DNA of 64,000 nucleotides from Takashimella koratensis. Its lineage: Eukaryota; Basidiomycota; Tremellomycetes; Trichosporonales; Tetragoniomycetaceae. The first letter of the stretch is position 1, and the number at the start of each line of letters is the position of its first letter. The notes under the pieces were generated by a model, which saw only the letters and a program-made list of their open reading frames with translations, had not been told where the DNA came from and did not search any database. Position numbers and translations under genes: made by a program. Where the stretch lies: positions 682,001 to 746,000 of the forward strand of contig BCKT01000005.1 in assembly GCA_003116875.1 (NCBI GenBank). Direction: 5' to 3'. Shown here piece by piece: positions 39,588 to 63,815 of this stretch.

Positions 39588-40387
39588 CTAGGACGGTGAG
39601 CGTGGGTTAAACTGTGCGGCGACTCCACTCCAGTCGTTGGATACGCCTACAAACGGCCGCATTGTATTATGATCAACCCAGGGATATCTCATAAGAATGT
39701 GAAGGAGATGGAATGCCCAATAAGGAGGAAGCCGCTCCAGCCAGTCCACCAAACCGCATCCAACGAGACCCATCTGGCACACCTTGTGAGGTTCCTCCAG
39801 TGCGGTGAGAGCTTCTCGAGCCAGGTCAAGGTCTCCTAGCTTTCCAGCAATCACAATAACTTCCGACGGGTTCTCTTCGGCTAACTCGGCGAGGCGGAAG
39901 ATGACGGCCTGGCGCGTTTTCTCGGCTTGGAGGAAGTCGACGATCCCCAGGAGTTCTCGCATTGGTCAATTGTCAAGCACAAAACGTGGTAGTTGGAGCC
40001 GATCAAGTTAAGGAATAGCGAGATCTCTTCGGAATCAAAATCCAGCTCCACGGGCTCGTCGCGACTGCCCAAGGTCTCGTACATTGATTTGAACAACCCG
40101 ATATGAGTGAGGAGGAGAGTGGTGGTGTCAGATTTGCAGTTGACGACAAGAGGCTCAGTGCCTGTCGAAGGAGCTTACCTCGCTTTGCACAGGTAGTGCT
40201 TGCTCCCTCTGAAGTAGACATTGTCCTTGGAGCGTATGACGACTTTGGCGTCCGGGTCGTTATGGAAAGGGTGGTCCTTGCGGGCCCCAGAGTCTGTGCT
40301 TTGTCAGTATCGGGCTAGGTATTTGACAGCTTGCGCGAAGCCTTCCCCGACGGACGTACGGGACGGAACCTTTGCAGGTTTAGGCAT
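39588..40387 (-). pseudogene. BTB-1, disrupted BTB/POZ gene
   Basis: This copy follows the array's three-exon plan: 40387-40360, 40293-40179 and a last exon beginning about 40100. The BTB start is intact (HPFHNDPDAKVVIRSKDNVY), as is the C-terminal signature NDWSGVAAQFNP. Two lesions are visible. First, the acceptor that should precede the GLFKSMYET exon reads CATAT|CGGG; every related gene has AG there. Second, the frame breaks by one base (or two extra) at about 39967, so LTIDQC no longer runs into RELLGIVDF. Either lesion alone would stop a normal product. A sequencing error could explain the frameshift but is unlikely to explain both. Confidence 0.8.
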
Positions 40388-40741
40388 CGTCGAGTTGACG
40401 AGAATGTCTCGCTGGCGGCGTTGAGCTTGTGCATGCTGGCTGTGACCGGGGACCGTTGAATGATGATGTTGAGAGGGACGGAAAACTTAGTATGAATGGA
40501 ATGTGCTCACGTGATGCTGATTGCAAACGAACCTCGACGGGTTCATCCCAGTCGATGTATAATCAGGAAGGCCTCCGATATCAGGATGTATACGCTTGCC
40601 TATGGACTGACAGATCGATCATGCGGAAGATGTGACCACTAATGACTCGCTCGTTTAGGAAAGCAGTGACTGTTATGGAGGACCGAGGGGAATTCAGCCA
40701 AGATGGAGGGAAGTACAGGATACAGTGCAAGGACGACTACT

Positions 40742-41598
40742 TTATGAATTCTCACAAAGGGACCCAAACTCAGCTGCTACTCCAGTCCAAGTGTGCTCGA
40801 TAAGAAGCACAGGCACTGTAGAGGGCTGATCAAACAAACGACCAGTTTTGCAGACGATTTTCAGGAGCCGGAACGCCCAGCTTGGGGGAAGCTTCTCCAA
40901 CCAAGAGAACAGTGTAGGTCCGTGATGGACAATTTTGGTTTGTGCGAGGGTTGCCTTATCCTCCAAGACAAGCAAAGCGTGCTTGGCAAGGTCGACGTCT
41001 TGATGGTGGCCCGCAGCAATGATCACCTCGAGAGGTTGAGTCTTGGCGAGCTCTCGCAACCGCTCCAAGACTCCTGTCTTCACTGCCTCCGCATCCACAA
41101 ATTTGGCAATACAAAGCAGGGCGTCACACTGAGTGATATCGAGTACGAAGGAGGGATTAGGGGTGCCAATTGTGTCGAGGAACAACGCGATGGTCGAAGC
41201 GGGGAAATCGAGCTCGATAGGTTGGTCCAGGTTGGTACCGCGGACAGTCTCGAACATCGACTTGAACAGATGGCTAAGATGATAGGAACATTCAAAATCA
41301 GCGCTTGAAAATCTCGCAGACCCGTCCCGCACCACTCACCTGGCGTTACAGATGTAAGGCCTGCTCGCTCGCAAATAGATTTCATCGTTTGACTTGATCA
41401 CCGCCTTGGCGTCGCAATCGTTGTGAAAAGGGTGATACTTGCGCTCGGTCACCTCTAAATGTATCATCAGCCTGCAGAAGGCGTGAAGCCATCCGATAAC
41501 GTACCGTGAGCGACGTCACAAGAATTGGTCAAGGTCTGAGGGAGATCATAGGACAATTTTTTGTTGATGTCGTTCATCTTGGGCGTTGTTTCTCCCAT
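40742..41598 (-). CDS. BTB-2, BTB/POZ-domain protein, 246 aa
   Basis: The exons are 41598-41505, 41454-41340 and 41273-40742; all phases fit (247 codons with the stop). The middle exon is 115 nt, the same length as in BTB-1. The BTB region starts at YHPFHNDCDAKAVIKSNDEI (about residue 36) and runs through SHLFKSMFE and IELDF to about residue 140. A helical region follows (QPLEVIIAAGHHQDVDLAKH), then LEKLPPSWAFRLLKI and the C-terminal HTWTGVAAEFGS. BTB domains mediate dimerisation and, in many families, Cullin-3 binding; no other domain is present. Its substrate or partner is unknown. It is the nearest relative of BTB-1 and BTB-3 by exon pattern and sequence. Confidence 0.88.
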
Positions 41599-42075
41599 GA
41601 TCAACGAAGAGGATGAAGAGGCTGGGAAAATCGAGACGGAGCTGAACCTTCGCACCGTTCACGTGATTTTGCCGGGGCCGATCATAACTAAAGCACGTTT
41701 CGTCCTACAGCAAAGATGCAACCCAAAGGCCCCTTGAAGGTGGGTGGAAATCTTGGTGGGACACGAGCAGTTCCGGTCGGAGAAGATGGGCATAGGCAGA
41801 TGAAGGAAGGCAATCTCGATGACAAAGGAGTAAATTGCTGTTTCGCCACCGAGCACGAGTACGATGTTGGAGTCAGAGGGAACATTCTTCTTCCAACAAT
41901 GGCGGAAAGTATGTCTTCCTCAGTAGCGCATACCAATTCGTCTAATGTTTAAAGTACATAGACAATGTCGGATCCACGAGAGGCTGTGAGGACAACGATA
42001 TGGAGTAGATGGAACGGGACGGGTTGCCCCATTACTAATCACGAGACAAAAGAGGCTTGAACAACGACCGTCTTA
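41599..42075. other. BTB-2 upstream region
   Basis: This is the promoter region between the BTB-2 start and the BTB-3 stop. No gene is supported. Confidence 0.45.
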
Positions 42076-42914
42076 TCATGGATTGAAGCGATCTGCGATC
42101 CCCGTCCAGTCTAAGGGAATCCCGAGGACGGCCTTATCTTGATAGTCATACGCGGGAGCCGTAGCCCACAGCAGGTGCAACAGATGGAACGCCCACGGAG
42201 GAGGAAGTAAACTCAGCCAAGATACCATCTTGCTGGCGTCCAAGGTAACTCGACTGTCCCTGAGAGGTCTCCTGTGCTCCAACACGCGTAACGCATCTTT
42301 CGCCAGATGAACTCTCCCATATTGTCCGGCAACGACGACGACATCAAGAGGTTGGGTCATAGCGAGGTCTCGTAATCGTGATTCCGCTGCCTCCCTGGCC
42401 TCCTTCGCATCTACGAAATCTGCAACTCCCAACAAGGCGTCGCAGGAGACTAAATCGTAGGGAACGTAGAGGCGGTCGGTCCCGACTGTGTTGATAAAGA
42501 TAAATATAGCAAAGGCTGAGAACCGGAGCTCCACGGGTTCACCGCGCTCGCCGAGGGTTTGGTACATCGACCGGAAGAGCTCGCTGTGTGCAGTAGTCAG
42601 TTGACTGTCTATACCAGGGTTGCCCGAGCTCGAGAGGACGAGATGCTTGGGTCAACTCACCTCGCTTTGCATATATATAGAGACGACTGACTCGAAAATA
42701 GACGTCGTCGTTGGACTTGATCACCACTTTAGCATCGGGATCATTGTGGAACGGGTGGTACGTGCGCCCAGCTGTGTCTGTCCCCATCAGCGGGTGGGTA
42801 GCCTCGATACCTACCACGCGGAACAAGAGCTGAGATGGGTCTCTGCGACGTCGACGGCGGTGATGCCTCCCACTCCTCCCTAGCGAGGTCAAACCTCGGC
42901 GTCGTCTCTGACAT
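42076..42914 (-). pseudogene. BTB-3, BTB/POZ gene with TA-tract frameshift
   Basis: The plan is exon 1 from the ATG at 42914 (donor GTAGGT), exon 2 from about 42768 to 42661, and exon 3 from about 42585 to 42076. The product would start MSETTPRFDLAREEW and end LDWTGIADRFNP. Exon 2 reads YHPFHNDPDAKVVIKSNDDV correctly. It then runs through TATATATATG, which is two bases longer than the equivalent stretch in BTB-1. That leaves exon 2 ending in phase 1, while exon 3 (ELFRSMYQTLGERGEP) needs phase 2. Removing one TA would restore the consensus. The gene is otherwise complete, so the break is recent, a sequencing error, or a switchable tract. Confidence 0.78.
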
Positions 42915-43594
42915 GCTTGTTGCTGAGATTGATGATGGTGATGAGGAGAAAGCCGAGGAAGCCCGTTGCCGCTGGGAAATCAGTCAACTTTAATCACGTG
43001 ACGTTCGCTGCCACAACATTTGGTCGTCAAGGTAGATAGATCAAACAAGAGGATGAGAGAGAAAACGATGAAGGGGTTGCGAAACGACACAATTGTAGCA
43101 GAGGGCACCACAAGGGGGAAGGCGGGGTAGGTGCTGGGCATTGTTGGATCGGTTGCGGAGACCTGGTACGCGTCGTGGAAGAAAAGGCGAAAGATGAAGA
43201 ACGTCGCCGCTCGAGATTGGTGCAGGGGATTGGGGTTTGGGAAGAAACCTTAACCCAAAATTCGTCCTACATGTACCACCGTGGTAGCGTATGCGAAATG
43301 ATGGTGGAGATTGGGTGTCTGATTCCGTTGCCGTTGAAAGCAAGGAGGTGTGAGCAACAAATGCTCTTTCTGATTCGGCGCGGATCAGGTGGGGCCTTCT
43401 CTACTATATCACAACAGGTGATCACTTCCATAAGACACCTTCACCGTTGCGTCCTTGCTTCCAAGTCATTCATGCTCGTCACTGTCTACAGTTCAATTAT
43501 CGGGAGACCTATGGACAAATGAGCAGTCAACCCCCTATCGAAATTTCATCCGATTGAGTACTGGTTAAGGCCGCGCCTCGATAGCATCTTGGGG
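42915..43594. other. BTB-3 upstream region
   Basis: 680 bp with no supported gene between the BTB-3 start and the BTB-4 stop. It presumably includes the BTB-3 promoter. Confidence 0.45.
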
Positions 43595-44407
43595 TTAAGT
43601 GTTGGGGTTGAAATTTGCGCTCAGCCCTTCCCAGCGAGGATTGATATACCAAGATTGATTACTGTGAGGACTACTGTGAAGCAAGCAACGAAGGATGTGA
43701 CTTGACCATGCGGTTGGAAGGCGTTCGATCCAATTCACAAACTGTCCAGGAGTTTGAAAGTAGTAGTTCTTTCCTGTGTGGTCGTGCCGGCTCTCGATCA
43801 CCTTTAGTGCTGCCTTGCCAAGCTTCACATCGTTGTGCACAGCTGCAATATCGAACACTCCCACCGGATCGTCGTGAACAGAATCCAAGAGCATGGTGAG
43901 CGCAAACTTCTGCACAACCTCGCAATCAGAGAACATCGCCAATTTGAGCAGTTCGGCACAATCAATGTTGGGCTTGGAGGGCTGCGAAGTGATCACGTCG
44001 AGGAATTTGGCGACAGTGGAGCTCGAAAAGTCAAGTTCGACCAACCGCTCACCACTCGCGACTTCAATCGTATTTCGAAAAAGAGTGCTAGACCCCGCCC
44101 GCGCTCAGTCTCAAAACCGGGCCCGAAGCCGAAAGATCCAGTGAGATGAAGAGACATACCTGGCTTTACAGAGATAGTATTGGCTTGCACGGAAGTACAT
44201 GCCGTCGTTGGATTTGATGAGAAAGTCTCCATTCGGATCGCGATGGAATGGGTGAAAGAGCGCATCCTGTCCAGTGTCTAGGTGATATGATCAGATACAA
44301 AGTGGGGGACATGGCAACCCCTATCGCTCACCTGCTTCCTCGCCGTCGGTGTTTTGATTAGCTTGTAGCTTCTGACCGGCTTCAAGCTTTGAGCTGGTGG
44401 ATGCCAT
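43595..44407 (-). CDS. BTB-4, BTB/POZ-domain protein, 228 aa
   Basis: The exons are 44407-44332, 44277-44160 and 44087-43595 (229 codons with the stop, all phases matching). The first residues MASTSSKLEAGQ are followed by FHPFHRDPNGDFLIKSNDGM then YFRASQYYLCKAS, the array's BTB start. After the invariant phase-2 intron comes TLFRNTIEVASGERLVELDF. The helical part includes DPVGVFDIAAVHNDVKLGKA and WIERLPTAWSSHILRCLL, and the protein ends PRWEGLSANFNPNT. It is the shortest intact three-exon member. No localisation signal or second domain is visible; its function is unknown beyond the expected BTB-mediated protein interaction. Confidence 0.87.
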
Positions 44408-44667: not shown

Positions 44668-45758
44668 TCAGCCTGGCGGGTTGAACTTATCCTTAACACC
44701 CCTCCAATCAATCGCCACCCCTCTCTTTCCTTGGCTCATCAAAGACCTCTGTAGCAGCAATCGGAGTAGGTGAAACGACCACTCGGTAGGCAACGTCTCG
44801 AGCCAGTCTACAAATACATTCGAGTCTCCCACGTACCAAGTACTCGGCAACGCTCCCTGTCTCTTCTCCAACGTCTCGAGCGCAGCTTTGGCCAGCTTCA
44901 CACTCCACATCTTCCCCGCGATCGTGAATACCTCCATGGGGTTGATCTTGGCGTGTCCTAAGAGGATGTTGGAAACGATACGGCGAGCTCGTTCGGCGTC
45001 CGCAAAATCGGCGATGGCGAGAGCGTCGATACTTTGAGCAAGGTTGAGGCGAAAGTTGTATTTGCGGGGGTTTGCGGTGTCAAGGAAGAAGGCGACGGTG
45101 AAGGAAGAGAAGTCCAGATCAATAGGATCAGGGTTGGAAGATCCGGGAGCTGTGCCAGCGATTTCAAACATAGATTGGAAGAGGCCGCTACACCCAAGCG
45201 CGTCAGCTGGCAAGAGATGAAGACAAAGTAGGAGAAGAGGAAGTGAAGCCCGAAAGAATCAGAGTATATGAAGCACGATAACGGGGGCTGCTTCATGTTA
45301 CTTGCCTCGCCTGACTGAGGTTCTCCTGGTTGGCGCGGAAGAAGACATCGTCATTGGACTTCAGGATGATCCTCGCAGCGGGGTTGTTATGGTTGGCATG
45401 CCATATCCTCTTGTCTGGTAGTGGACCTTTCCAAACGGTGTCGAAGTGAGCGTTTAGCCCATACTGCTACCAGGATTCAGCCTACCTGAGCTCTCGCCAT
45501 GCCTGCCCTTGTCGTTGGGTAAGCCCTCCGTGATGCATGCCGCCTGGAGCTGAAGAGCGACAGACTCGGTTGGGTCGGAGAGTTGTTGCCGCTCCTGTGT
45601 CGTTGCGGGGTCTTCCACGTTGTCCGGCTGTCAGTCTCCCGGCGTAGTTTTGAAAACAGCGCAAGCTCACCTAGCGGCTCCTTGTCACTATCTGCATTGC
45701 GAGTGGGGTTCGAGGTCAGCTCCGAGGCTGGTGGAGGCTCGGCGTCCTTTGTCATCAT
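44668..45758 (-). CDS. BTB-5, BTB/POZ-domain protein, 280 aa, with a GC-AG intron
   Basis: There are four exons: 45758-45671, 45611-45486, 45414-45306 and 45187-44668 (281 codons with the stop). The N-terminal extension (about 70 residues, MMTKDAEPPPASELTS onward) is longer than in neighbours. The BTB start is RIWHANHNNPAARIILKSND then FFRANQENLSQAS. The last intron has a GC donor (GCGAG|GCAAGT) and a normal AG acceptor; the nearby GT would give the wrong phase. The helical part has NPMEVFTIAGKMWSVKLAKA and LETLPTEWSFHLLRLLL, and the C-terminus is DWRGVKDKFNPPG. The exon 2 acceptor (GTGGAAG) was chosen because it alone keeps the frame. Confidence 0.82.
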
Positions 45759-46101: not shown

Positions 46102-46941
46102 TCAAGGCTTTCGTGGATGGAAACCATCAGCGACCCTTCCCCAGTTTTGCGGTACTGCCCCCACGATGGATTTATCCCTTTGAGCGTACGGTATCTCTCT
46201 TCGTTGATGTTGAAACAGTATGGCAAGAAGGTGGGACGACCAGTGCCCTCGAAGACGCTCAAACATCCTCAAGAAGTCTGCTTCGTTAAACGCCCCAGAA
46301 CCCCACCTCTGCCCCCCAATGTGAATCAGCACTCTCTTTCCCAGCTCCAGGTCTTCACATTGGGAGGCCGCAACGAGAACATCCCATGGGGATTCGGGGA
46401 TCATCGCGCAAAGAGAATCCTTCGCCCATTTACGCGCCAGATCTGAGCCGACGAAATCTGCCAGGGACAGGAGACGGTTGCACTCCTCCCAGTCGTCCAA
46501 GTAGTAGCGGTCGGAACAGTTGCTGACATCGAGAAACAGGGACACGGTGGTGCTCGGGAAGTCGAGCTCGATCGGCAAATCTCCCTGCGTAGCGGTATCG
46601 CACATGGAGCGGAAAAGGTCGCTCGAAGTGCCCAACTGTTAGCCGAGACGGATGCAAAACCGCTCACGGAGAGAGTATCAAACCTTGTCGCTCATCGATA
46701 CTCACCTGCTCTTGGAGAGGTAGTGGGGGCTCGCCCTAAACCAGACGTTGTCGTTGGACTTGAGGATGAGCGTCGCCGCGGGGTCGCAGTGGTACTCGTG
46801 CCAGACCCTGTCTGAACTCACGTCAGCAGGTCCCGTGAAAATTAATCTCAACCTGGGATAAGGCGAAGTACCTGAGGGCTGCACGACGGAGCTGTTGGTG
46901 CTCGAGGTGAGACCCCCCGCTGGGCTTATGGAGGCTGCCAT
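46102..46941 (-). CDS. BTB-6, BTB/POZ-domain protein, 231 aa
   Basis: The exons are 46941-46872, 46811-46706 and 46621-46102 (232 codons with the stop). The last acceptor is TTCGAG, about 20 nt after a GGCTAAC branch site, and gives the usual phase-2 Ser codon. Motifs: VWHEYHCDPAATLILKSNDN (about 25), WFRASPHYLSKS, DLFRSMCDTATQGDLPIELD, then DFVGSDLARKWAKDSL, SPWDVLVAASQCEDLELGKR, RLRGHWSSHLLAILF and the C-terminal NWGRVADGFHPRKP. BTB-6, 7, 8 and 10 share the W-D/E-V helical variant and the F-V-(G/D)-S-(D/E) motif, so they form a subgroup. Confidence 0.87.
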
Positions 46942-47169: not shown

Positions 47170-48195
47170 CTACTGGTACGGTCCTGAGCATTTACAAGTT
47201 TTTTTTTTCGGGTTGAACATCTTACTTGCCCCCGTCCAATCTTCGGGGACCCCTCCAATTAGACCTTTGCCCGTGAGACCCTTCTTTGCGCTAAGCCTGA
47301 ACAGCACCTCCAGCAGGTGTGCCGACCATTCAGGTGGGAGTCGACTGATGAACAGGGGAAAGTCAACGTCGACGAGGACGCCCTCGGAGTTCTTCCATCT
47401 CCCACAGTTGTTGTCGAACTTTAGCGCTTCGGAAGTGCGATCCAGCACCGCTCGCGCAAGCTCGACGTTCTCGTGATGAGACGCTACGATAAATACCTCC
47501 CAAGGGTACTCGAAGATGAGACTGCACAACGATCCAACGGCCCAAGCGGTGATACAGTCTGAATCCACAAACTTGGCGAGGGAGAGAAGTCGATCGCAGG
47601 CTTCACAGGTGTCCAGATCGTAATGGTACTCGTAGGAGTTGATGCAGTCGAGGAACTGGGAGATGGTGGAACCGGGAAAATCAAGCTCGATCGGCTCCTT
47701 CTCAAAATCGCGATCGCTCCTCTTGATGGCGTTGAACATGTCCTGAAAGAACGTACTGGAAGGGCAAAAAGCGTGAGATTAGGAATGTGCAAGTGAAGAC
47801 AAGGACTGGGAGATGGGTGAGCGAGACTCACCAAGACTCTTTCAGGTAATATTCACTGGCTCGGAAGAAGATGTCATCGTTGGATCGGAGGATGATCCTG
47901 GCGTCCGGGTCTCGATGGTGTGGGTGCCATTTTTCTTCTGAGACAAGGTCAGCTGGATCTCAACGCAAGGAAGGAAACCCCTATTTCGTCGTGCGAACTT
48001 ACTCGATTTTTCCTCGTCTGACGCTTCCACTGTCTTGCCCGCAGCGTTGGCATCGGTCTCGTGACTGGCATTGTTCGTATCCTTGTACATTGTGATCTTC
48101 GTGGTGGAAGTGGTCTTGGTGGTGAAAGTAGTCTTGCCCTTGCCTTCCGGCGTGGTCGATTGCTGATCCGCATTCGGAACTGTGTCGAATGCCAT
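47170..48195 (-). CDS. BTB-7, BTB/POZ-domain protein, 294 aa
   Basis: The exons are 48195-48003, 47937-47832 and 47755-47170 (295 codons with the stop). The N-terminal 65 residues are variable and Thr/Lys-rich (TTFTTKTTSTTKITM). The BTB start is KWHPHHRDPDARIILRSNDD then FFRASEYYLKES, followed after the phase-2 intron by TFFQDMFNAIKRSDRDFEKE and PIELDFPGSTIS. The helical part includes YPWEVFIVASHHENVELARA and ISRLPPEWSAHLLEVLF, and the end is DWTGASKMFNPKKKTCKCSG plus a few residues, with a short Cys/Lys tail not seen in neighbours. An in-frame ATG lies upstream at about 48273, so the start could be earlier. It is closest to BTB-8. Confidence 0.86.
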
Positions 48196-48494: not shown

Positions 48495-49781
48495 TTACTC
48501 TTCGTCTTTCTCCTTCTCCTTTTCCTCCTCTCCCCTCTCCTCGTCCTTCCCCTCCCTCTCCTCCTCCCCCTCGTCCTCCCCCTCGTCCTCCCCCTCGTCC
48601 TCCCCCTCGTCCTCCCCCTCGTCCTCCCCCTCGTCGCCGTCGTCCTCCTCCCCTTCCTCCTCTTCCTCCCTCTCCCCCTCGCCCCCCCCTTCCTCCTCGT
48701 CTTCTGGGTTCTCCTCTTCGTCGTTCTCCATGTCTTCGTCTTTGTCCGCCATTTCCTCATCGGCGACGTTTTCAGACTTGAGCAGCTCGGGATCAATCTT
48801 TTCGGGCTTGGCGAGTTTGGGAATCGATCTCTCAGACTTGACGGGCTCCGGATTGAACTGCACACTCACCCCGGTCGACTTTTCAGGTATCGCTCCAGCC
48901 ATACCGTACCTCTTGTGACCGTTCCTTTCCCCGATCCTCATCAGGAGGCGAAGCAGGTGAGCCGCCCAATCGGGAGGGAGCCGACCGAGGCCGTCAACGA
49001 AGTTGGTGTTGGGGAAGTAGCGTTTTTCCCACTCTTTTGATTCGAGCGAAATCGCGTCTTCCAGACTCTTCAGCACGGCGCGTGCCAACTCAACGTTTCG
49101 ATGATGACCAGCGACGAGAACGTCCCACGGAACGTCATACATGAGGCCTCGAAGAGAATACATCACTCCTTCCTTGGTTTCTTCGGAACCGACAAAATCG
49201 GCGAGGTAGAGTAGCTGATCGCACTGTTGCCAGTTGTCGACGTAGAAGAAAGTGGACGAGTAAACCGAGTTGAGGAAGGCAGTGATGGTGAGGCTGTGAA
49301 AGTCGAGCTCGAGCGGGGCTTTCTCAAAGTCGGGGTGTGTGTCGGCTTCGAACATCGAGGAGAAGAGATCGCTGAGTAAGGCGGTTGGTGAAGGTGGTGT
49401 CGCAGTTAGCTGGGATCAGGACCAGCTGTAGCGAGGCGGAGAAAAAGAGGATCGCCGTGCATGGGAGGAAGGGTGCGTGCACCCGTCGTCTCAAGATGCT
49501 CACCAGTACTCGGCAAGGAAGAACTTGCTAGCTCGAAAGAACATGCCATCATTGGACTTGAGGATGACCTCGTCGCGCGGCTGGCGAAAGTGAACGTGCC
49601 ACTTCTTCTCCGGCTCGGGCTTGGCTGGAATTTGTTAACCACCCTTCAAGTTTCCTTGCGAGCCGTGGAACTTACGGTCTGGTTGCACAGCCGGATCGAC
49701 AGCGGATTCGGTCGGGGTCACGGCGACTGGCTGGACAGCCAGCTGGGGCTCGGTGTTGGCTGAGACGGTATCGATGTCCAT
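48495..49781 (-). CDS. BTB-8, BTB/POZ-domain protein with acidic repeat tail, 367 aa
   Basis: The exons are 49781-49676, 49624-49504 and 49371-48495 (368 codons with the stop). The core matches the array: KWHVHFRQPRDEVILKSNDG, FFRASKFFLAEYC, DLFSSMFEADTHPDFEKAPL, VPWDVLVAGHHRNVELARAV, LGRLPPDWAAHLLRLLM and KSTGVSVQFNPEP. Uniquely, about 110 residues follow the FNP signature. They begin with a Lys/Glu-Pro-Glu spacer and become a nearly pure Glu/Asp tract containing about five tandem EDEG units (48,570-48,640). Acidic tails of this kind often bind histones or basic proteins; that role is inference. The tail is encoded by a 12-bp CTCCCCCTCGTC-type repeat. Confidence 0.87.
48570..48640. repeat. 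12-bp coding repeat for the BTB-8 acidic tail
   Basis: About five tandem copies of a 12-bp unit (TCGTCCTCCCCC on the plus strand), encoding GEDE on the minus strand. Confidence 0.85.
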
Positions 49782-49989: not shown

Positions 49990-50690
49990 GATACAGTGGT
50001 CCAAGTCCCACGGGTTGAATAGCTCGCTCACCCCCACGAAGCTCTCAGGTATAGCCTCCTTTTTTTCCTCACCCCCCAAGCCCCTCTTCTCACCGAGCTG
50101 GAGCAGTACTTCCAGGAAATGTAACGATCAGTGCCAAGGGAGATTCTTGACCAGAGCTGTCATGCTGTTCCGTGTCCACATGATCAAGCCACCCTACTCC
50201 CCCTTGCACGTCTCCGCCTCAGCGAAGACCTTTTGAGCGAGGCCGACTTACAGTTCCGACCGGTAACTACTAGTACGCTCCAAGGTTGATCCGGAATAAG
50301 ACGTTGTAGCGAACGCAGGGTGCCCTTCTCCTTTGCATCCGAGCCCCCGATCCGACGAGGTTGGCAAGGGAGGGGAGCTGGTCGCACTCTTCCCAGATAT
50401 AGGATTAGTAATACTAACCAGAGCCGATGCAGTCAAGGAAGGCACCGAGAATCAAGCTGTCAAAATCAAGCTTGATAGGCTCCATCTCGAGGTTCTCGGC
50501 TTTCGCGTTTTTGATTTGGGGGTCTCATAGTGCGCTAAAGAGCCGTCCCCCTATGGTGAGTCTAGGCCAAGAAGAGTAGATACTGCCGACCAGCTCACCT
50601 GCAGCGGAACAGGTGATACCAACTTGAACGGAAGTGGATACCGTTGTTGGCTCGAATGACACTCGCTACGAGGGTCTATGTTGTGCTTGT
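49990..50690 (-). pseudogene. BTB-9, decayed BTB/POZ gene
   Basis: Pieces of the array's protein remain in order but not in one frame. They are VIRANNGIHFRSSWYHLFRC with a normal phase-2 donor near 50600, MEPIKLDFDSLILGAFLDCI near 50440-50500, then two in-frame stops where the SGxYY segment should be. EECDQLPSLANLVGSG, LIPDQPWSVLVVTGRN and the C-terminal EAIPESFVGVSELFNPWDL at about 50010-50070 follow. At least two frameshifts separate these blocks, and the start codon region is not recognisable. The sequence is closest to BTB-6/7/8. This is an old, clear pseudogene. Confidence 0.85.
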
Positions 50691-51091
50691 CCCAGTCCCT
50701 CTTGGAGTCGAGGTCGAGTTGGTCATCTGAGGTGATCCAAGCTCGACCTTCAACAGGGAAACTCGTTCACCTGACATATTCGTCACTCCCTATGATGTTC
50801 GTAGCCTGGCTCAACGGAGTCCAGGACAGTCACGATCTCGACCGAGTTAGGCTTGGTATCGGTTTCCGACTTTGGGTCGCGATGTGCAGCGAAGAGGAAG
50901 GAAGATGGGTAAATCAACGAGCGCAAAAGAGAGGCTAGTCCAGCTCACTGGGATCCTACTTGAATTGGTCAATCCATTTTTTCACTCATTGCTGGGATCA
51001 GCCTGTACTGAGTTGTAACAGGACACGATGAACATATCACTACATACGAAGTCCCTACTCCCTTCGAGAACGGTACAGATCAATCCTTGGA
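50691..51091. other. Region between BTB-9 and BTB-10
   Basis: About 400 bp with no supported gene. It may include remnants of the first exon of BTB-9. Confidence 0.4.
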
Positions 51092-52149
51092 TTATACTTC
51101 ATCTGGGTTGAATCTTTCACTAACACCGGACCAATCAGTCGGAATAACCCCTAGCATCCCTTTCTTTTGCAATCCTTGTTCCAGACCGAGCTTCCACAGC
51201 ACGCGGAGGAGGTGGGATGACCAGAGTGGGGGAAGATCATTAACCAATGACTAAGCTCATCAATTTCCTCATGCTCGGTCTCCTCTGTCTGAGCACCCAG
51301 TTCCTCAATGCGAGTCAGAGCCTTCTTGGCAAGGTTGACGTTGTTGGTGCTAGCGGCGACCTTGAATATTTTCCAGGGTCTCTCGGGTATGATTTGTTCC
51401 AAAGAATCCAACGCCCATGTCTCGACAATCTCTGAACCAACAAATGCCGCCAAACTCAAAACATCTTTGCAGCGGTCGCAATCTCCCAGAGAAAGGTTGT
51501 TACCGCAGCTGATCGAATCGAGGAAGTCTCCAATCACCACGCCGGGAAAGTCCAATTTGATCGGTTCTCTCTCGAAATCGCCCTCCGTCGCAGTCTCGAA
51601 CATGGAACGGAAGAAGTCGCTATATCCATCTGGTCAGTAAAAAGTAATCGTCAATCTTTGAATTGAGCTCACCAGGTTCGGCATTGGTGGAATTTACTGG
51701 CCCGAAAATACACATTGTCGTTGGACTTGAGGATCACCTTGCAGTCCCGGTCTCGGTGCGTCTCGTGCCAGTTTCGCTCGGGTGTGCAGTCCTGTGAGAG
51801 GTCGGGGAGAAGGCGTCAGCTGGGGTCTTACTTGGATCCACTTCGACTCACCTGTGGGTTTGTCCGACTTGGCTTCCTTAGCGGGAGGTTGATCGGTAGA
51901 GGGTTCTGCGTTGCGATTCCCGCGCTTCGCGTTGGTGCTTGCGTCGATACCAGGCGCCAAGTTACTGGATGGCTTTGGGGTAAGGTGAGGCAGACCGGCG
52001 CTTGCTGAGTAGCAGTGGAGGATGGAGTGACGAAAGATCAAGTTTGACAAGGATGAAAATTTGAACCGGTGCCCGCGCGGCCTGTGCGTCGTGCAAGGTG
52101 TGTCTGAGGGAGAAGCGTGGCCTGATTGATGGACTGATGGATGGATCAT
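51092..52149 (-). pseudogene. BTB-10, BTB/POZ gene with C-terminal frameshift
   Basis: Recognisable blocks are the N-terminal exon (STDQPPAKEAKSDKPT), exon 2 (NWHETHRDRDCKVILKSNDN then YFRASKFHQCRT) and exon 3 starting about 51622 (DFFRSMFETATEGDFEREPI). After ELSHWL a one-base loss shifts the frame. The shifted product stops at 51151, while the original end DWSGVSERFNPDEV is still readable down to a TAA at about 51092. Two further problems: the exon 1 donor phase does not match exon 2, and no ATG lies close to the expected start (the first in-frame one is about 52149). It is related to BTB-6 and BTB-9. It is probably non-functional, though a truncated BTB protein could still be made. Confidence 0.72.
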
Positions 52150-52245: not shown

Positions 52246-52930
52246 TCATGGAAAGGGTCCTACACGAGCTGTGGTAGGTCAGGACGTAAGCACTCGAGAC
52301 AAGGAATTCGAGAAGAGTTTTAGCTTTGAGGGTGACTCACCCCACGTCAAGAATTGGATCTGCCTTGCGGTGGCCAACATCACCGCTGCACTGTCTACGT
52401 ACTCCGCAGCTTGGTAGAGTTTCGAGCAGTCGTCGACCCCACGAGGTGCGGAGGAGAAGAGCGGGTCGGGGTTGTCAAGCATGGCTAGGAGCTGGGAGAT
52501 GGTCTTTGCCGGGAAGGGGAGCTCAACAGGTGTGGAGGGATCTGCGTGACAGGTGGTGAAGAGGTCGCGGAAGAGGGTGCTGCATGCATGACGAAGAGGG
52601 AAGTGTACCCTGGTGAGCGTGAAAGCTTGCGAAGAGAGCGAAGAGACGACGAGGGAAGAGCGAGGGATGTAACACTTACCAGCCGGTGACCAACGCTAAC
52701 CGGTCTGCGCGGAGCTTTTTCCCATCACTCGAGACGATCACCACGCCCTTTTCGATACTTTGGTCCAGCATCTCGACTCGCAGGAACAACAGGCTTGGGA
52801 TAGGTGGTGTGGGCAGCGAACCAGTCGGGGCGGTGATGGTGTTGAGACTAGAGGAGGTTGCAAGACGGCCGGCAGCCGCAGATAAGAGAGGCCATGGTGA
52901 AGGTATCATGCTTGGGATGAAAGGTTGCAT
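52246..52930 (-). CDS. BTB-11, divergent short BTB/POZ protein, about 170 aa
   Basis: The best model has exons 52930-52680, 52579-52341 and 52268-52246 (171 codons with the stop). This member is unlike the others. Its BTB start is MLDQSIEKGVVIVSSDGKKL then RADRLALVTGC, with no H-x-DP or SNDxxFRAS motif. It continues TLFRDLFTTCHADPSTPVEL, DDCSKLYQAAEYVDSAAVML and stops soon after TARQIQFLTW. The helical region and FNP signature are missing. The intron before TLFRD is still at the same phase-2 position. The third exon adds only a few residues and is uncertain. It may be a separate BTB lineage or a truncated copy. The start could also lie at the Met a few residues downstream. Confidence 0.65.
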
Positions 52931-54293: not shown

Positions 54294-55224
54294 ATGCCCT
54301 GGGACATCAAGTCGTCCATCAAGTCCATGGGTAACACCAGCTCCAACGTCCCCCCTGCGTACACCCCTACACCGACCGGCATTTCGTACCTCGACACCCC
54401 GTCGTCGTCAGTCTCCAGCTCGTCCAAACACGTTTCGAAATCTAAGCAGACTGTGCCCGTGGTCAAGTCGGACACTGAGAGCAAGCGTAAATGGCACGAG
54501 TTCCATTGCGACCCCCGGGACGAGGTGGTGCTCAAATCTGAGGACGACATGTACTTTCGCGCGAGTCGTCACCGTTTGGTCAAGTCAAGGTGAGTATGGG
54601 GCTCTTCCTTCACCGTTCCCCCTGGCCTTCTAAGCTCCCCATTACTGAACATGCTGACAATCAACAACCCCCTGTAGCACTCTGTTCAAGGACAGCTTCG
54701 AGCTCGACACCGCCCCAGTCCTGAACGACCCGGACCTTGCCGTTGCTCTTCCGTTCTCGAGCGAGCAAATTTCCAACTACCTCGACGCTATCAACGCAGC
54801 CAACATCTCCCTTGTCCCCTTTAGCGCTCTCCAATGCCTTGGGATTCGTGACGTCGCCTTGTTCACCGACAGCGAGCGAGTCACCAAGGCTGTCGACGCC
54901 CAACTCGATATCCTCATGATCAACCAGCCATTCGTCGTCATCGTCGCCGCTGGAGACCGTAACGACATCGAGCTCGCCAAACGTGCCCTGGGGTGCGTCA
55001 ACAACCAACACGCTCCCAAGCTTGGGAATCAAAAGAATCTCGTCCACTTCTGGGACTTTGTCGACAAGCTTCCAAGGCATTGGGCAGCGTGGATCTCTCG
55101 AAACGCTATCACTTCGGTTTCGTACTCGGGGGATTACAAACTCGTTGGAGACTGGACAGCCTGGAAATACACGTTCAACCCCGACATTTACAAGCCAGCT
55201 CCCGGTTCAATGCGACGACCGTAA
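54294..55224 (+). CDS. BTB-12, BTB/POZ-domain protein, 280 aa, inverted copy
   Basis: There are two exons, 54294-54589 and 54678-55224 (281 codons with the stop). It is the only plus-strand member. The N-terminus is Ser/Thr/Pro-rich (residues 1-62). The BTB start is KWHEFHCDPRDEVVLKSEDD then MYFRASRHRLVKSS, and the phase-2 intron is at the family position. Exon 2 reads TLFKDSFELDTAPVLNDPDL, LPFSSEQISNYLDAINAANI, NQPFVVIVAAGDRNDIELAK, FVDKLPRHWAAWISRN and DWTAWKYTFNP. The conserved HLLRLL segment is replaced by AAWISRN. The ancestral N-terminal intron is absent, as in BTB-13 to BTB-18. Coding sequence is complete and codon phases are clean. Confidence 0.88.
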
Positions 55225-55487: not shown

Positions 55488-56337
55488 TCACTGCATCATG
55501 TCTTTCTTGAAATCATCGGCGATCCGATGCCACAGATCAAACGAAGGAATCGTCTTAAAGGTCGTCATGAACAAGCGCACCATGCGAAGTGCCCATTGCA
55601 GAGGTAGCCTGTCGAGAATGTACCAAATCTCATCTGCACTCTCTCTCATCTCAGTTGCGAAGGTCGACTTGTAGCGCTTCACATTACCCATACAGTCGAT
55701 AGCTTTCGAAGCGAGCTCGACGTCCAGATGACGACCGGCAATGAATAAGACATCGAGAGGTTTATGGAGGGCGGAGTCAGAGATCTTGCCCAGAACGAGC
55801 GAGTGGAACTTGGCGGCGTCGATGAACTTTGCAAGCGAGAGGAGACTCTCGCACTGGGGAAGAGTGATAGTGATGGAAGAAGGTTCGGCTACCGAAATGA
55901 TGTCCAGGAAAATGGTGATTGCTTCCTGGGGGAAGTCAAGCTCGACAACGCTTTTGTGATCGGCTGAAGCGACTGAGAGCAAATGCCTGAAGAAGATGCT
56001 GAACGTCGCATGTCAGAGTGGAAGTCTCAGATCTTACTACATAGAAGAAATCTTACCTGTGCTTGCTGAGGTGGTATTGACTAGCGCGGAAAAACATGGC
56101 ATCGTTGGACTTGACCACCACATCGTCGCTGGGATCGCAGTGGATTGGATGCCAGCGGCGCTCACCCTCGTCTTCAGACGGGGCACCCGGTATCGCCTCC
56201 ATTTCGGTGCTGGTCTTGGGAACCTTTGACGCCACCGTGCTTTCATTCTCTTTGCTTTCTTCACGCCTTCGCTTTCCGTCGCTTGAGCAGCTGAGATTGG
56301 GCTGTTGCGAAGGTCCAGAGGTCGTGTTTTGGTTCAT
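55488..56337 (-). CDS. BTB-13, BTB/POZ-domain protein, 263 aa
   Basis: There are two exons, 56337-56057 and 55998-55488 (264 codons with the stop). The N-terminal 65 residues include a basic cluster (DGKRRREESKENES) that could act as a nuclear localisation signal. The BTB start is RWHPIHCDPSDDVVVKSNDA then MFFRASQYHLSKHS. Exon 2 gives IFFRHLLSVASADHKSVVEL, LPQCESLLSLAKFIDAAKFH, KPLDVLFIAGRHLDVELASK, LDRLPLQWALRMVRLFM and ends LWHRIADDFKKDMMQ. The FNP signature has become FKK, as in BTB-14 and BTB-15 (FER, FED). These three form a subgroup by sequence, intron number and position. Confidence 0.88.
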
Positions 56338-56729: not shown

Positions 56730-57583
56730 CTACCAGCTCGTCGGTAGACAACTGCGTTCAAACTCATCCGCGACCCGGAACCAATCTCCCAAATCGGGGA
56801 CAGTACTTGTGCGCCTAAGCAACAAACGTAATCGAACTGCCCACTCTATCGGTAGTCTATTGAGAATGTACCGCACCAGGATATCAGTGTTAGGTATATC
56901 GGATTCGTGACCGAGACTGCTCCAAGTGCCTAAAGCTGCCTAGTGCGTCTGCAGCGAGACCCGTCTGGTTGATTCTAGCGGCGGTCAACAAGATTTCGAT
57001 TGGGTGGTCTTCTGTCATTCGATGGAGTTTGGTGAGCACCGTTTCCCTGAGCTCAGCGGCGTCAAGGAGTTTGGCGAGAACGAGAAGTCTTTCGCAGAGT
57101 GCGAGGGAGAGTGCTAGAGATGAAGGGTTGGAGACTCTGATCAGGTCCAAGAACGTGGAGAGGGTTTCGCAATCGAATGGAAGAGCGGTGATGGGCTCTT
57201 GGTTCTCAACGACGATGGAGAGCATGTCATCAAAGAATGCACTAGAGCCAGTTTGGTTTGGTTAGCGATGACAGTAGGGGTTGCGAGTGACAGAGACTTG
57301 CTCACCAGTGTTGGGACAGGTGATAACCACTGGCGCGGAACAAGACACTGTCATTGGATTGGATAACGACTTTGTCCCCGGGATCTCGGTGAATAGGGTG
57401 CCAACGAAGAAGACCTTCGGGTTCGGGGGAATGGCGATTGTCCTTACTCCGCTTCATAGGCTTGTGAGGAGACCATGTCTCTTCGATGTAGGCTTGATCA
57501 GCTCTGCGCTTGACAGTTTTGAGAGGGGACCACGTTTCTTGGATGAAAGCTTGGCCGACGTTGGGTTTTGTCGAGTAGGCCAT
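56730..57583 (-). pseudogene. BTB-14, BTB/POZ gene with late frameshift
   Basis: Exon 1 is 57583-57306 (an upstream ATG at 57622 is also in frame) and exon 2 starts at 57241. The BTB start is RWHPIHRDPGDKVVIQSNDS then VLFRASGYHLSQHC, with the intron at the family position. Exon 2 reads AFFDDMLSIVVENQEPITAL, LCERLLVLAKLLDAAELRET and HPIEILLTAARINQTGLAAD. After about residue 203 (SFRHLEQS) the frame shifts and stops at 56890. The lost end is still readable in another frame as YILNRLPIEWAVRLRLLLRR and WFRVADEFERSC, down to a TAG at 56730. The N-terminus carries an internal duplication of an ETWSP..KR segment. The BTB domain itself is intact, so a shortened product is possible. Confidence 0.78.
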
Positions 57584-58148: not shown

Positions 58149-58920
58149 CTATTTCATGACATCCTCGAATTTTTCTGCGATCCCGAACCATCTATTAAGC
58201 GGTAAAAGCCGCCTGGCTTGTTGGCGCCTGTACTCTGCCGGCCTAGGCCATGGAATCAGGAGCAAGCCAACAAGAGGAAGCTGCCAGCAAAGGGGCATGC
58301 GCTCCACCAGGGACCACTCAGGATCCGTATTTTCTCGGACTTCAGGTGGGATATCGAGGTTGTTTTCAGTCCCGCGCATGTTTTCAAGCGCCTTTACGGC
58401 AAGAGCGACGTCCAAAAGGCGGCCAGCGATCATCAGGCACTGTATAGGGTTGTTCGAGGCGCAACCGGCAACGTTATGCCATACGTATTTGTAGAGTCCG
58501 TCGGCGTCGATAAATTGGAAGAGTCGGAGTAGTCTTTCCCGACAAGAAAGCGGAATTTTGACGAGGGAGAGGTGTGAGAGAGGAGCGACGTTGACAAGGA
58601 ACCGGATGATTTCATCGTCAAAGTCGAGCTCGATTACCCCGCCTTTATCGGAGGCAGCGACATTCATGATATCTCGAAAAAAGGTGCTGCCAAGGTCTTT
58701 GGTCAGCCGTCACCCAAACTCTACCTCACTGGCCTTACCTGTGACGACATAGATGGTAACGACTTCCTCGGAAGAATTTGCCTTGGTTGGATTTGATGAC
58801 GATCTCGTCTCTTGGGTCACAATGAACAGAGTCCCATCGACGGTTGTCGAGTCCTTCGGAGTCGCTGTCCGGATCGCGCCTGCGTTTGAGGAAAGGTATA
58901 TCGTTCGACGTGCGAGACAT
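58149..58920 (-). CDS. BTB-15, BTB/POZ-domain protein, 239 aa
   Basis: There are two exons, 58920-58739 and 58686-58149 (240 codons with the stop). A basic cluster sits near the start (PFLKRRRDPDSDSEG), a candidate nuclear signal next to an acidic CK2-like stretch. The BTB start is RWDSVHCDPRDEIVIKSNQG then KFFRGSRYHLCRHS. Exon 2 reads TFFRDIMNVAASDKGGVIEL, SCRERLLRLFQFIDADGLYK, NPIQCLMIAGRLLDVALAVK, VERMPLCWQLPLVGLLL and ends RWFGIAEKFEDVMK. It is closest to BTB-13 and BTB-14. An insert of about eight basic residues (YRRQQARRLLPL) precedes the C-terminal motif. The coding frame is complete. Confidence 0.88.
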
Positions 58921-59439
58921 TCCGGTGTCAAAGGAAACGCGCAAGAGGTTGGGCGCAAGATGCGTGGAGGTTGAGTTGCAAGATATAAGTGATAGGGATG
59001 GACTGGCAGAAGAAAGATGAAGTTGAGAGAAACGGAAAAAGGAAGGCAATATGAAGATTGCTTGTTGGTAAGTGACCTTCCATTCAAGCCGTGCATGTGG
59101 CTCATGATGTGGGTCTTCTTCAGAACCACTTTCATATCATCACTGTACAACTTGCGTTTTCTGCCGCGTTTTTCAGGTGGAGGGGTGTGATGAGGTTTCT
59201 TATACGTCCCAGGCAAAATCGACCGAGTCTATTGTGGCTATGGAAGTCGCAGACGTCTTGCGAGATTTCTCTTCAAGTAGGTTGGGTAGCCGGCTTTGTG
59301 GTCTCGCTGTCGCATTTTGCAGCTGACGACAGGGGTGGTGGGTAGCATGGTATGGACAGAACTGCCGATGTTAGAGGCTATTGAACCGAAGAATGGTAGG
59401 GAGTTTAGTTTCCAGGTAGAAGCCGCTAAACAAGGGAGG
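58921..59439. other. BTB-15 upstream region
   Basis: About 520 bp between the BTB-15 start and the BTB-16 remnant. The second exon that BTB-16 should have is absent here. No gene is supported. Confidence 0.4.
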
Positions 59440-59617
59440 TGTTGGCATCATTAACTTGCTCGCATGGAAGAACATACCATCGTTCGACTTGATCACGACG
59501 TGGTTTTCTGGATTGGGTTGAATTGGGGGACAGAAGGCACCAGATGCGGAAATATTGCTCGGAGATGTCGGTGCCGTTGCTCGTGTCGCTCGGGGGTGAG
59601 GAGTGATGCGAGTCCAT
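59440..59617 (-). pseudogene. BTB-16, truncated first exon of a BTB/POZ gene
   Basis: The stretch starts at an ATG (59617) and reads MDSHHSSPPSDTSNGTDISE then FRIWC. It shifts frame, then gives NPENHVVIKSNDGMFFHASK, the array's BTB start. No splice donor or second exon follows; the frame runs into unrelated codons and stops at 59371. The W-C pair before the NP motif matches BTB-17 and BTB-18, so it belongs to that subgroup. It is a 3'-truncated duplicate. Confidence 0.75.
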
Positions 59618-59811
59618 GGTACGCTTGCAAATGGGAGTGGTCTCACCCCCGGACGAGGGCGGGATGATGAGAGAGCAAGGAGAGGGCGAGATACACGGCA
59701 AACCGCCAGTGAAGAACCTAGGGGGAAGGACGACACACACACGCGTACAAAACAATGGTGTCTGCATATATTGCATGTACGGATCAGACCTCGTCAAGAT
59801 TGTATGTTGAG

Positions 59812-60502
59812 CTATTGGTGGGGGTAAAATACTATACTGATCCACGACCAAACATCGCAAACAGTCATTTCTTTGTGATCACCGGGCACTTGTATCAATC
59901 TCAGCAAACACGCCGACCATAAAGTAGGGAGGCCTTTATGGTACAGGAGCTTGGTCAACTTGACCTCATTGGTTGCTAGCTGGTATCTTGCCACCGCCTT
60001 GGTGTCCATACACGCCAGGGCGCTCCGAGCAATCTCCTCGTTGTTGTTGTGGGCTGCGACCAGGAAGGCTTCCAGAGGGGATTCGACGAGGAAGTGGTGG
60101 ATTCGGGATTAGACCGCTTTTTGAGCATCGGTTGCTCCCGTGACTGGTGCAAGCCCCAAGAGATCGTCGCAGGTGGCCAGATCGATATCTAGTATGAGAT
60201 GCTTCGACACGGAGAGGAGTCCGAGATAGAGGGAGACGACGTGCGCCGGGAAGTCGAGAGGGATGGGATTGGCCGGGGAATTGCAACCCATAGCGCCAAG
60301 ACTCAGCAGGTCATCGAAAAATTCGCTGCAAGAATTAGATAGCTGTTTCACCGTATGGCCCACAGCCTACTCAACTCGCTTGCCTCAGGCAGTACTCGTT
60401 TGCACGAAAGAGTGTTCCATCGTGGCTCCTGATGATCACCGTAGCTTGAGGGTTGTTGTGCACCCGACACCACCGAGAGAGGGCGGGAGACAGCTGGTGC
60501 AT
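59812..60502 (-). pseudogene. BTB-17, BTB/POZ gene with nonsense codon and lost donor
   Basis: Exon 1 from the ATG at 60502 reads MHQLSPALSRWCRVHNNPQA and TVIIRSHDGTLFRANEYCLR. Where the family has AG|GT, it has GCGAG|TTGAGT, so the splice donor is lost; the next usable GT gives the wrong phase. Exon 2 starts at 60325 (EFFDDLLSLGAMGCNSPANP, VVSLYLGLLSVSKHLILD). It contains a TAA at 60109-60111 after TDAQKAV. The same frame then continues cleanly as HHFLVESPLEAFLVAAHNNE, ACMDTKAVARYQLATNE and GLPTLWSACLLRLI to a stop at 59812. Two independent lesions and otherwise good preservation point to recent inactivation. Its closest relative is BTB-18. Confidence 0.85.
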
Positions 60503-60768: not shown

Positions 60769-61532
60769 TCATGGGTTGCATTCGGGACCCAGGGTTGACC
60801 AGTCCGAGCGAACGGCAATGTGGGTGTACAATTGTGCCTCGCCGTTTTTCTTGTCGGAAGCCCATTTGGTGCATGGTTTCAAGACCAGTCGCCAAAGACA
60901 CGCTGACCAAGTCGGAGGGAGTCCCTTGCACTGAATAAGTTCCACCAGTTTCTCCCGGCTCGTTGCTAGCTTGTATCGTGCGACCAGCTTCTCATCCATG
61001 AACCCCAAAGCCTCCTTTGCCAACCTAACATCCCCCTCGTGCGCTGCGACCACAAACACCTCCATCGGGCTCTTGGGCAGCAAAGCCGCGAGTTGCACAT
61101 GTACCGCGTTTTTCACGTTGACGCAGCCGGTGAACCTTGCCAAGCTCAAAAGATGGTCGCAAGTTTCGACGTTGATCTGGGGAGCGATAGTGCAGAGCGT
61201 AGAAGGGATGAGGCCGAGGTAGAGCCGGACAACTTGGGATGGGTAGTCGAGAGTGATGGGGTCGGCGATCGAATTTGAGCCCAACGCGTCGACGCTCAGC
61301 ATGTCATTGAAGAAGTCGCTGAGAGGTTGAGGGTGAGCGAGTAGCATGACTTGGCGCCAACGGGCATCCTCGCTTACCTCGACCGTTTTAGGTGGTATTC
61401 GCTTGCTCGAAAATTAACCCCGTCGTTGCTCTGGATGATAATGTTCGCTTGTGGATCGTTATGGTCACCGCACCACTTAGGGAGAGAGATTGGTGCGCAA
61501 CCCATTTCTTCGTCGTCGATGGGGTCAGACAT
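60769..61532 (-). CDS. BTB-18, BTB/POZ-domain protein, 234 aa
   Basis: There are two exons, 61532-61378 and 61318-60769 (235 codons with the stop). It begins MSDPIDDEEMGCAPISLPKW and continues CGDHNDPQANIIIQSNDGVN then FRASEYHLKRSS. Exon 2 reads DFFNDMLSVDALGSNSIADP, VETCDHLLSLARFTGCVNVK, SPMEVFVVAAHEGDVRLAKE, LATSREKLVELIQCKGLPPT and ends SDWSTLGPECNP, a variant of the FNP signature with Cys for Phe. The start codon lies only 58 bp from the end of the transposon-like element at 61590, so the original promoter has been displaced. Transcription may now depend on the element or may be lost; this cannot be told from sequence. Confidence 0.87.
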
Positions 61533-61589: not shown

Positions 61590-61619
61590 CAGTGGGGGGA
61601 AATAATAATTTGGTACAAG
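61590..61619 (+). repeat. Left terminal inverted repeat
   Basis: 30 bp, starting CAGTGGGGGG and ending GGTACAAG. It is preceded by TA. Confidence 0.93.
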
Positions 61620-62517
61620 GCCATTTTCGGGTTTGTAACTGCTGCATGGTACTCCTGCGCCAATACTAGCGCAGTAACATTGAGATAATGTATGGATATT
61701 GTGACACAGGCTATGAAGCTGCTGTAACAACAAAACATGCATAGGATCCATCTTGCACTCACAGTGATGTGCCAAAGAGGAACATGAAAAATAACAAATA
61801 CGTCTTGGTTATGCTGGTGACATCTCAAGCAGAAAGGCACTGCTGCCTTTCCAGAACCCTGCAGTGGTTTTGGTACGTCTCATGAGTGTCCTAACGGTTC
61901 TTCTAGATAGTAGAGCTATTGTAGCATCTTGGAGGCTGCTCAGAAGAGGGTGACCCCAGTATTCCTCCCCATAGAAAAACTGCCACCAGGTGGCACCTTT
62001 GAGGGAGTTTGAAGTGCTGGCCAGGCTGCTTTGAGACGTTGCTCATGCAACAGGAAGTCTCTTGCTCTGATACTTCACCCATCAAGTCTCCTCTGAGTTT
62101 CACCAGTGTGAAAGCAAGAATGAAGAAAAAATATGCATTATCAGATGTGCTGATGAGAGGTAAAGATGCTGGCTGCCATGATTTTGAAGGCTCAGCCATC
62201 TTTTCCAAATGTAAAGTATATATGGTCATTACACTATGGAAACTTGGTGTGAAGGAAGCCAATGCATGTATGAAAAGGACTGCATGGGAGATACAGCATG
62301 TTTCAAAGGTTAAACTGCAGAGGGAGCACTGCATTTGGAGCTCATTTTCAGTCAAAATGGAAGCACATCCATGAAACAGATTGTGATCAGGGAAGTCTGG
62401 CAGCACTGCATTAAACATGACCATTGGCATGCCATTAGTACATCTCCCAAGTACTAGAGTATTAGAGGAGCTGCAGCATGAGATGTAGCATCTCGAACAT
62501 GATGGCTAGGCAACCTG

Positions 62518-62547
62518 CTTGTACCAAATTATTATTTCCCCCCACTG
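62518..62547 (-). repeat. Right terminal inverted repeat
   Basis: 30 bp, the exact reverse complement of the left repeat. It is followed by TA. Confidence 0.93.
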
Positions 62548-62839
62548 TACGTACGCTTTTCGTCCTGATGGCAGATTTGGGAATCGTCGTGGCAGGGGAC
62601 AAATACCGTAATTGGGAGAAGTTGCAATGAGAGTTGTTAAGCATGTACTTAACATCTAATGCGACCTGATTCTAAGTTACCCAGGTTCTTGTGTGCACGT
62701 GCTTATAGGAACCCCTTTCGAGCCCCGCACCGCCTTCATTTAAGTTCATCAATCAAGCCGGAACCCCGGCGCAAGGTGAAAATTCGACCTTCAACGCTGC
62801 TCATCGAAACAACAAGATGTATTGCACGCCAAAAGTGTA
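62548..62839. other. Region between the element and BTB-19
   Basis: 292 bp downstream of the BTB-19 stop. Before the insertion it was presumably part of the BTB-18 promoter. No gene is supported. Confidence 0.4.
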
Positions 62840-63815
62840 TCAAGGGTTGAATGTTTGCTTCAAAGAGGACCAGTCGTGGGATACAGAGATAGACCTATGA
62901 GCCACTCGAGAGCTTCTGTTATCGAAGACAAGTTTGTTGGATTTAACCAGCACAAGGCGGAGAAGATGAGCGGACCAGTGTGCGGGAAGGGCTGGGTGGC
63001 CGATGAACTCCCAGAACTTGGTAGGATCGGTCGCCAGCTGGTAGCCTTCTATCTGCAGTGCGTTCATCGCCCCAAGACAATCCCTTGCCAGCTGCAGCCG
63101 ATCGCATCGGGCTGCGATGAGGAAGACTTCCAAAGGTTCTGAGGACAGCAATCGCTCAAGCCTCGTCTCGATACCATGCACGATGTTTGGGGCGTCGACA
63201 AACAACGCCAACGCCAAGAGTTCGCCGCCCGATGCGAGGTCAAAGATGGGATTGACCTCCCCCGAACACGCAATGAGGTCCCACAAAGTGACAATTGCTT
63301 GGTCCGGAAAGTCGAGCTCCACCGGCTTCGTAGAGGAGATATCCTTGGCAGAGTCTAGGTTGAGTAGATCCGAGAAGAATGTGCTAACGGAGACCAGCAG
63401 TGTTCACTATCTTCAGCATCACTGTTCCTCTCTTCGCCAATCCCAATGCGCACCTGGATTTTTTCAGGTAATAGTCGCTCGCTCGGAAGAGAGTGCCCTC
63501 ATTGCTTTTGATGCAAACCGTAGCTCGAGGGTCATTGTGTTTCGCATTCCAAACCGGCCGCTTGAGCGCCGCGTTGATGTCCCGGAGTTCTATGCTGGAA
63601 TGTGGGGAAAGCTCGCTGGAAGGTAAGCGGAGGATCGATAGACAGGTACTTGCCTCATCACGTTGACGGAAAGTGGGTTGAAGGCAAGCGTTGCGCTCTC
63701 CTCGTTGGCGAAATCCTCGGTCAAAGGACCGTCTCAAAATGACGGCCCGTGCATCAGTCAAGTCTACTCCGAGCGTCCTCCGTTCATCTTGAAAGTTGAA
63801 TGGAGAATTGGTCAC
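62840..63815 (-). CDS. BTB-19, BTB/POZ-domain protein, about 301 aa
   Basis: There are two exons, 63815-63454 and 63383-62840 (302 codons with the stop). The donor is GTGCGC and the acceptor CGTTAG, at the family's phase-2 position. The first 80 residues are basic and variable (DARAVILRRSFDRGFRQRGE). The BTB start is VWNAKHNDPRATVCIKSNEG then TLFRASDYYLKKSS. Exon 2 reads TFFSDLLNLDSAKDISSTKP, VELDFPDQAIVTLWDLI, GGELLALALFVDAPNIVHGI, EPLEVFLIAARCDRLQLARD, HPALPAHWSAHLLRLVL and ends HDWSSLKQTFNP. The N-terminal extent is uncertain: the open frame is long enough to hide a small upstream intron. It is the last complete gene before the window ends. Confidence 0.83.

Follow-up and report, generated by a model that had tools for sequence, protein, structure and literature searches.

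Background

SPOP and the BTB-3-box/BACK adaptors of CUL3 ubiquitin ligases (MATH-BTB and BTB-kelch proteins) have in common a BTB fold followed by 3-box-like helices. MATH-BTB families have expanded in nematodes, and an immune role has been suggested for adaptor families of both nematodes and plants. The MATH-BTB family of grasses is also expanded (PMC6883508), and BTB proteins are known to undergo lineage-specific expansion (PMC1257465). For mushroom-forming fungi, the orthogroups listed for ubiquitination in development include BTB/POZ genes as well as F-box and RING genes (PMC8893723), and for plant F-box genes, many of which are pseudogenes, a model of genomic drift has been put forward and an immune role is disputed (PMC3030570). 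The subject here is a tandem array of genes of one BTB family in the basidiomycete Takashimella koratensis, lying in and beyond a 64,000-base stretch of contig C5 (BCKT01000005.1) that is referred to as the window (C5:682001-746000); the genome amounts to 25.1 Mb in 24 contigs. The array is best explained as an old tandem family, confined to one locus and now decaying, whose small intracellular BTB-3-box products most likely serve a CUL3 ubiquitin ligase as substrate adaptors, and we put the probability of this explanation at about one half.

Extent and location of the array

A reading of the window made from the sequence only had placed 19 BTB loci side by side at 39588..63815 (24 kb), 18 of them on one strand. 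All 19 were located there, from B01, whose left end is at 39588, to B19, which ends near 63667 (loci are named B01-B25 from left to right along C5); B12 lies on the plus strand and the other 18 on the minus strand. The right-hand limit has to be moved, since the array overshoots the window's right end by about 12 kb and contains six further loci (B20-B25), so that the whole comprises 25 loci in ~36 kb (C5:721.6-757.7 kb), 24 of them on the same strand. A family profile trained on 12 window copies was used to scan the window and its right flank (~104 kb in all). It recovered the seven window loci on which it had not been trained, with E-values for the best piece ranging from 1.4e-33 (B10) to 8.3e-5 (B09), it revealed B20-B25, and within the ~104 kb it gave no match at E 0.1 outside the array. 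Four array members used as protein queries against the whole genome yielded 40, 41, 34 and 38 matches, and all 153 fall within the limits of the array. The possibility of a dispersed or subtelomeric family was rejected because the contig is 1.75 Mb long and these matches are confined to its 0.72-0.76 Mb interval.

Two profile searches of a very large protein database (2721 candidates each) returned no homologue at E<=0.001 or at E<=10, though such a search needs shared 5-residue words and distant relatives can escape it. The same database returned fungal relatives, up to 59% identical, of a GH115 gene that neighbours the array. No published account of such a fungal BTB array was found in the literature searched, which lay mostly outside subscription journals; in the excerpt of PMC13085929 a BTB-labelled gene appears only in the legend to a mating locus.

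Gene structure and BTB assignment

The copies share a layout of a short variable N-terminus, an exon 2 of 32 codons with a consensus resembling WHxxHxDPxAxxxIKSNDxxxFRASxYYL, a phase-2 intron and a long exon encoding the remainder of the BTB domain and a helical C-terminus that often ends W.G....FNP. This intron splits the BTB domain at a fixed place: exon 2 ends 2 bases past codon 32, in the same phase, in 14 of the 15 minus-strand copies compared. The sole exception is B03, whose donor has shifted by 2 bases within a TA run, so that exon 3 does not continue the phase of exon 2 unless splicing makes use of a weak donor. Other variants are a GC donor in B05, a lost donor in B17 and a lost acceptor in B01. 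Averaged over all pairs of 15 copies, with B03 counted among them, identity is 44% for exon 2 and 34% and 26% for the remaining parts of the BTB domain; it is 33% over the 26 residues that follow, 14% for the linker, and 29% and 28% for the final parts. The N-termini of different copies show no resemblance to each other, and the sequence-only reading was right that the intact copies keep the core motifs and differ wholly at the N-terminus. Basic runs are present in the N-termini of B13, B14 and B15 and absent from several other copies, and inspection by eye revealed no secretion signal in the array proteins.

The proposal that these are members of one short BTB family is supported by the recovery of the untrained loci with the family profile and by comparison of 12 spliced cores with the Pfam BTB model PF00651, which matched seven at E<=1 and the other five not at all. 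The curated cut-off was passed by two (B08, 7.9e-8; B13, 2.6e-4), the remaining five matches falling below it, and none of ten unspliced exon-3 pieces had a Pfam match. A genome search with PF00651 picked up two BTB genes outside the array, on C4 and C2, and none of the 25 array loci; such a search is therefore blind to split or divergent BTB genes and does not amount to a census of BTB genes in this genome. Its best BTB matches were the two in a 642-residue open frame in L067 (C4:334000-340000).

The predicted structure (predicted local distance difference test score, pLDDT, 77) contains a BTB fold, and its best fold matches, with moderate scores, are to adaptors of CUL3 ligases, SPOP and KLHL3 among them, across the BTB domain and 3-box. 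Alignment of the model to KLHL3, gigaxonin and NPR1 extends to residues 212-214 with a root-mean-square deviation of 4.0-4.1. The 3-box/BACK helices after the BTB domain are present in the predicted model only, and the BTB plus 3-box arrangement is to that extent inferred. The best sequence matches among solved structures are BTB transcription factors. A cullin gene at C2:1.42 Mb, one of three found in the genome, has Cullin-3 as its best match. Pfam scans of the 12 cores, nine N-termini and one whole protein detected no substrate-binding domain and no DNA-binding, MATH or kelch domain. The array proteins are thus like SPOP-type adaptors in the order of BTB fold and 3-box-like helices predicted by the model, but they differ in having no detected MATH or kelch domain, in their short and variable N-terminus and in sequence (10-19% identity in the 16 best fold rows), and their binding of CUL3 is putative.

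Age and mode of duplication

The window had been thought to show dense local duplication in a family under fast turnover. Local duplication is borne out, and the turnover part is half wrong, the births being old and only the losses looking younger. The best match of 13 of the 15 copies lies within three loci, the exceptions being B12 and B25, which are 32% identical to each other, and protein distance tracks map distance (Mantel r 0.40, p 0.0006), so that the array grew by local duplication. However, the closest pair of the intact set with B03 counted in (B02/B03) is only 46% identical in protein sequence. At fourfold sites of codons for the same residue, 65-74% differ in five near pairs and 69% over all pairs, compared with a random-codon expectation of 73%, and even nearest copies have reached, or nearly reached, synonymous saturation. 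Thirteen comparisons with broken copies gave fourfold differences from 3/8 to 28/31 (158/245 when pooled, or 64%); where more sites exist the lowest values belong to B10 (10/20 and 9/18), which may therefore be somewhat younger than the other copies. When the array DNA was compared with itself no repeat of at least 60 bases exceeded 80% identity, and the one perfect match was the terminal repeat of a transposon-like element described below. Neither the protein identities nor the DNA self-comparison of the array thus gave any recent duplicates, and recent, fast duplication was rejected on the grounds of the 46% best pair, the lack of any DNA repeat above 80% and the synonymous saturation. A codon model returned values of omega (dN/dS, the ratio of nonsynonymous to synonymous substitution rates) of 0.083 and 0.069 on a tree of 89 substitutions per codon, a depth at which the value is unreliable, and because of the saturation the same applies to dN/dS calculated by region.

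Grass and nematode MATH-BTB genes are like the array in being many related BTB genes within one lineage, but they have the MATH domain, whereas in the array no MATH domain was found and the births are old. Lineage-specific plant F-box genes resemble the array in being ligase adaptors with tandem copies and many pseudogenes, but they combine an F-box with Skp1/CUL1 and many of their copies are recent (PMC3030570), whereas the array genes are BTB genes and their copies are not recent. The BTB/POZ genes of mushrooms are, like these, basidiomycete BTB genes outside the conserved core, but the passage in question describes no tandem array (PMC8893723); any relation by descent is putative, and the protein searches found no homologue for the array.

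Intact and broken copies

Fourteen of the 25 loci have an intact core, a term that covers the BTB domain and C-terminal core only and does not require a start. Eleven of them are in the window, to which all coordinates in this section refer, and with the exception of B12 are on the minus strand: B02 (40742..41599), B04 (43595..44407), B05 (44668..45758, with the GC donor), B06 (46102..46941), B07 (47170..48195), B08 (48495..49781), B12 (54294..55224, the sole plus-strand copy), B13 (55488..56337), B15 (58149..58920), B18 (60769..61529) and B19 (62840..63667). The other three are B20, B21 and B25; the 3' end of B20, also on the minus strand, occupies the last 34 window bases (63967..64000), its remainder lies beyond the window, and B21-B25 follow. 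A search for N-terminal exons found no start for B05 or B19; inspection by eye suggests that B19 may have a GC-AG intron. B08 has in addition a long acidic repetitive tail (48495-48760) that is not present in the other intact window copies. One locus, B03 (42076..42915, minus strand), is doubtful on account of its shifted donor. The sequence-only reading had counted 12 intact and seven broken copies; the seven broken ones are confirmed, but B03 reduces the remainder to 11 intact and one doubtful.

The ten broken loci are these seven, all on the minus strand, together with B22, B23 and B24. A single frame-breaking lesion is found in B10 (51085..51990, an exon-3 frameshift), B14 (56733..57583, a frameshift) and B24, one or two in B23, and two in B01 (39588..40434, loss of the exon-3 acceptor and a frameshift), B17 (59815..60502, loss of the donor and a nonsense codon) and B22. 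More degraded or fragmentary are B09 (49990..50720, several lesions), B11 (52341..52800, a divergent, truncated BTB locus) and B16 (59374..59618, an exon-2-like stretch). In B01, B10, B14 and B23 the family C-terminus survives in another frame past the frameshift. These calls rest on the assembled sequence, in which single-base lesions, such as those of B10, B14 and B24, and the TA run of B03 could be assembly errors. As several broken copies still read like the family apart from one or two lesions, the losses are younger than the births, which are old.

Neighbouring sequence

The array sits among ordinary genes. To its left in the window are a GH115-like gene (7128-9152), ORC2 (24417-26240) and a weak Myb-like match just under its cut-off (38443-39255). 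The best named matches of the GH115 gene are 53-59% identical (top 16 rows) and come from Tremellomycetes. A run of 100 N lies within a simple repeat at 36091-36190. Between B21 and B22 there is an open frame of 438 residues, repetitive and rich in serine (L004:4737-6053, on C5), which by eye has a start like a secretion signal and which has no Pfam match.

Just upstream of B18 lies a transposon-like element of 962 bases (window 61588-62549) with identical 32-base inverted ends, TA at both sides and 44% G+C. Its CpG ratio is 0.17, compared with 0.92 in the array, and none of the three open frames scanned in it gave a Pfam match over the cut-off. A second copy, 93.6% identical, is present at C5:885246-886207, and one end-like match was found on C17.

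Interpretation and alternatives

If the array is an old family of CUL3 adaptors, local duplication would have produced about 25 copies at one locus, which would have diverged until synonymous saturation and would presently be being lost one at a time. The proteins would dimerise through the BTB domain and dock on CUL3, while the variable N-terminus and the C-terminal linker, which is poorly conserved, would select their targets, and as adaptors they may tag other proteins for destruction. A more specific version, in which a lineage-specific adaptor repertoire recognises targets by its variable N-termini and hypervariable linker for the purpose of intracellular surveillance, with its expansion over and the repertoire now shrinking, is improbable.

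Under genomic drift the copies would have come and gone with little effect on fitness, leaving a slowly dying remnant in which most copies do little; this is rather unlikely. Ten broken loci of 25, a further doubtful one and the lack of recent births are consistent with it, and drift has been argued for the lineage-specific plant F-box genes, with their disputed immune role (PMC3030570). However, 14 cores are still open, with splice sites and core residues conserved despite synonymous saturation, which neutral decay would not allow, and an omega of 0.07-0.08, though unreliable at such depth, points to constraint. It is unlikely that these are instead nuclear or scaffold BTB proteins that act by oligomerisation without CUL3, for example as transcription co-factors. 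The basic runs in B13, B14 and B15 and the transcription factors among the best solved sequence matches would suit such a role, but the runs are missing from several other copies, the Pfam scans found no DNA-binding domain and the best fold rows continue beyond the BTB domain to take in the 3-box found in CUL3 adaptors.

Genes for recognition, defence or self/non-self that evolve under diversifying selection might be expected to form a tandem array with variable N-termini, broken copies and a linker of 14% identity, and the immune function proposed for nematode and plant adaptor families lends this idea some appeal. Yet there are no recent duplicates, and BTB goes unmentioned in the 10 papers listed out of 84 that deal with fungal heterokaryon incompatibility or allorecognition. 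A role of this kind is improbable and, as no finding speaks for it more than for drift or an ordinary set of adaptors, unsupported. The apparent age of the array could also be an artefact of hypermutation of repeats resembling repeat-induced point mutation (RIP), in which case divergence was rapid and the array only appears old. The extreme synonymous divergence of the duplicates would fit, and tandem duplication followed by RIP has been proposed for other genes in a nematode-trapping fungus (PMC3828140). However, transitions make up 92 of the 235 fourfold differences in near pairs (39%), compared with the ~34% that a hand calculation predicts from composition; the array has a TpA/ApT of 0.61 and its flanks have 0.68 and 0.64, and CpG is not depleted in the array. 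With transition share and dinucleotide indices so close to expectation or to the flanks, this explanation was rejected as highly improbable.

Significance

The locus concentrates 25 members of one BTB family in 36 kb; the genome searches found none elsewhere, and the search of a very large database detected no related protein. The age result is a caution that a tandem array with pseudogenes should not be taken as evidence of recent, fast evolution. If the array proteins do bind CUL3, as the explanation preferred here would have it, then one deletion could remove the whole adaptor repertoire, and the purpose of such expansions would become directly testable.
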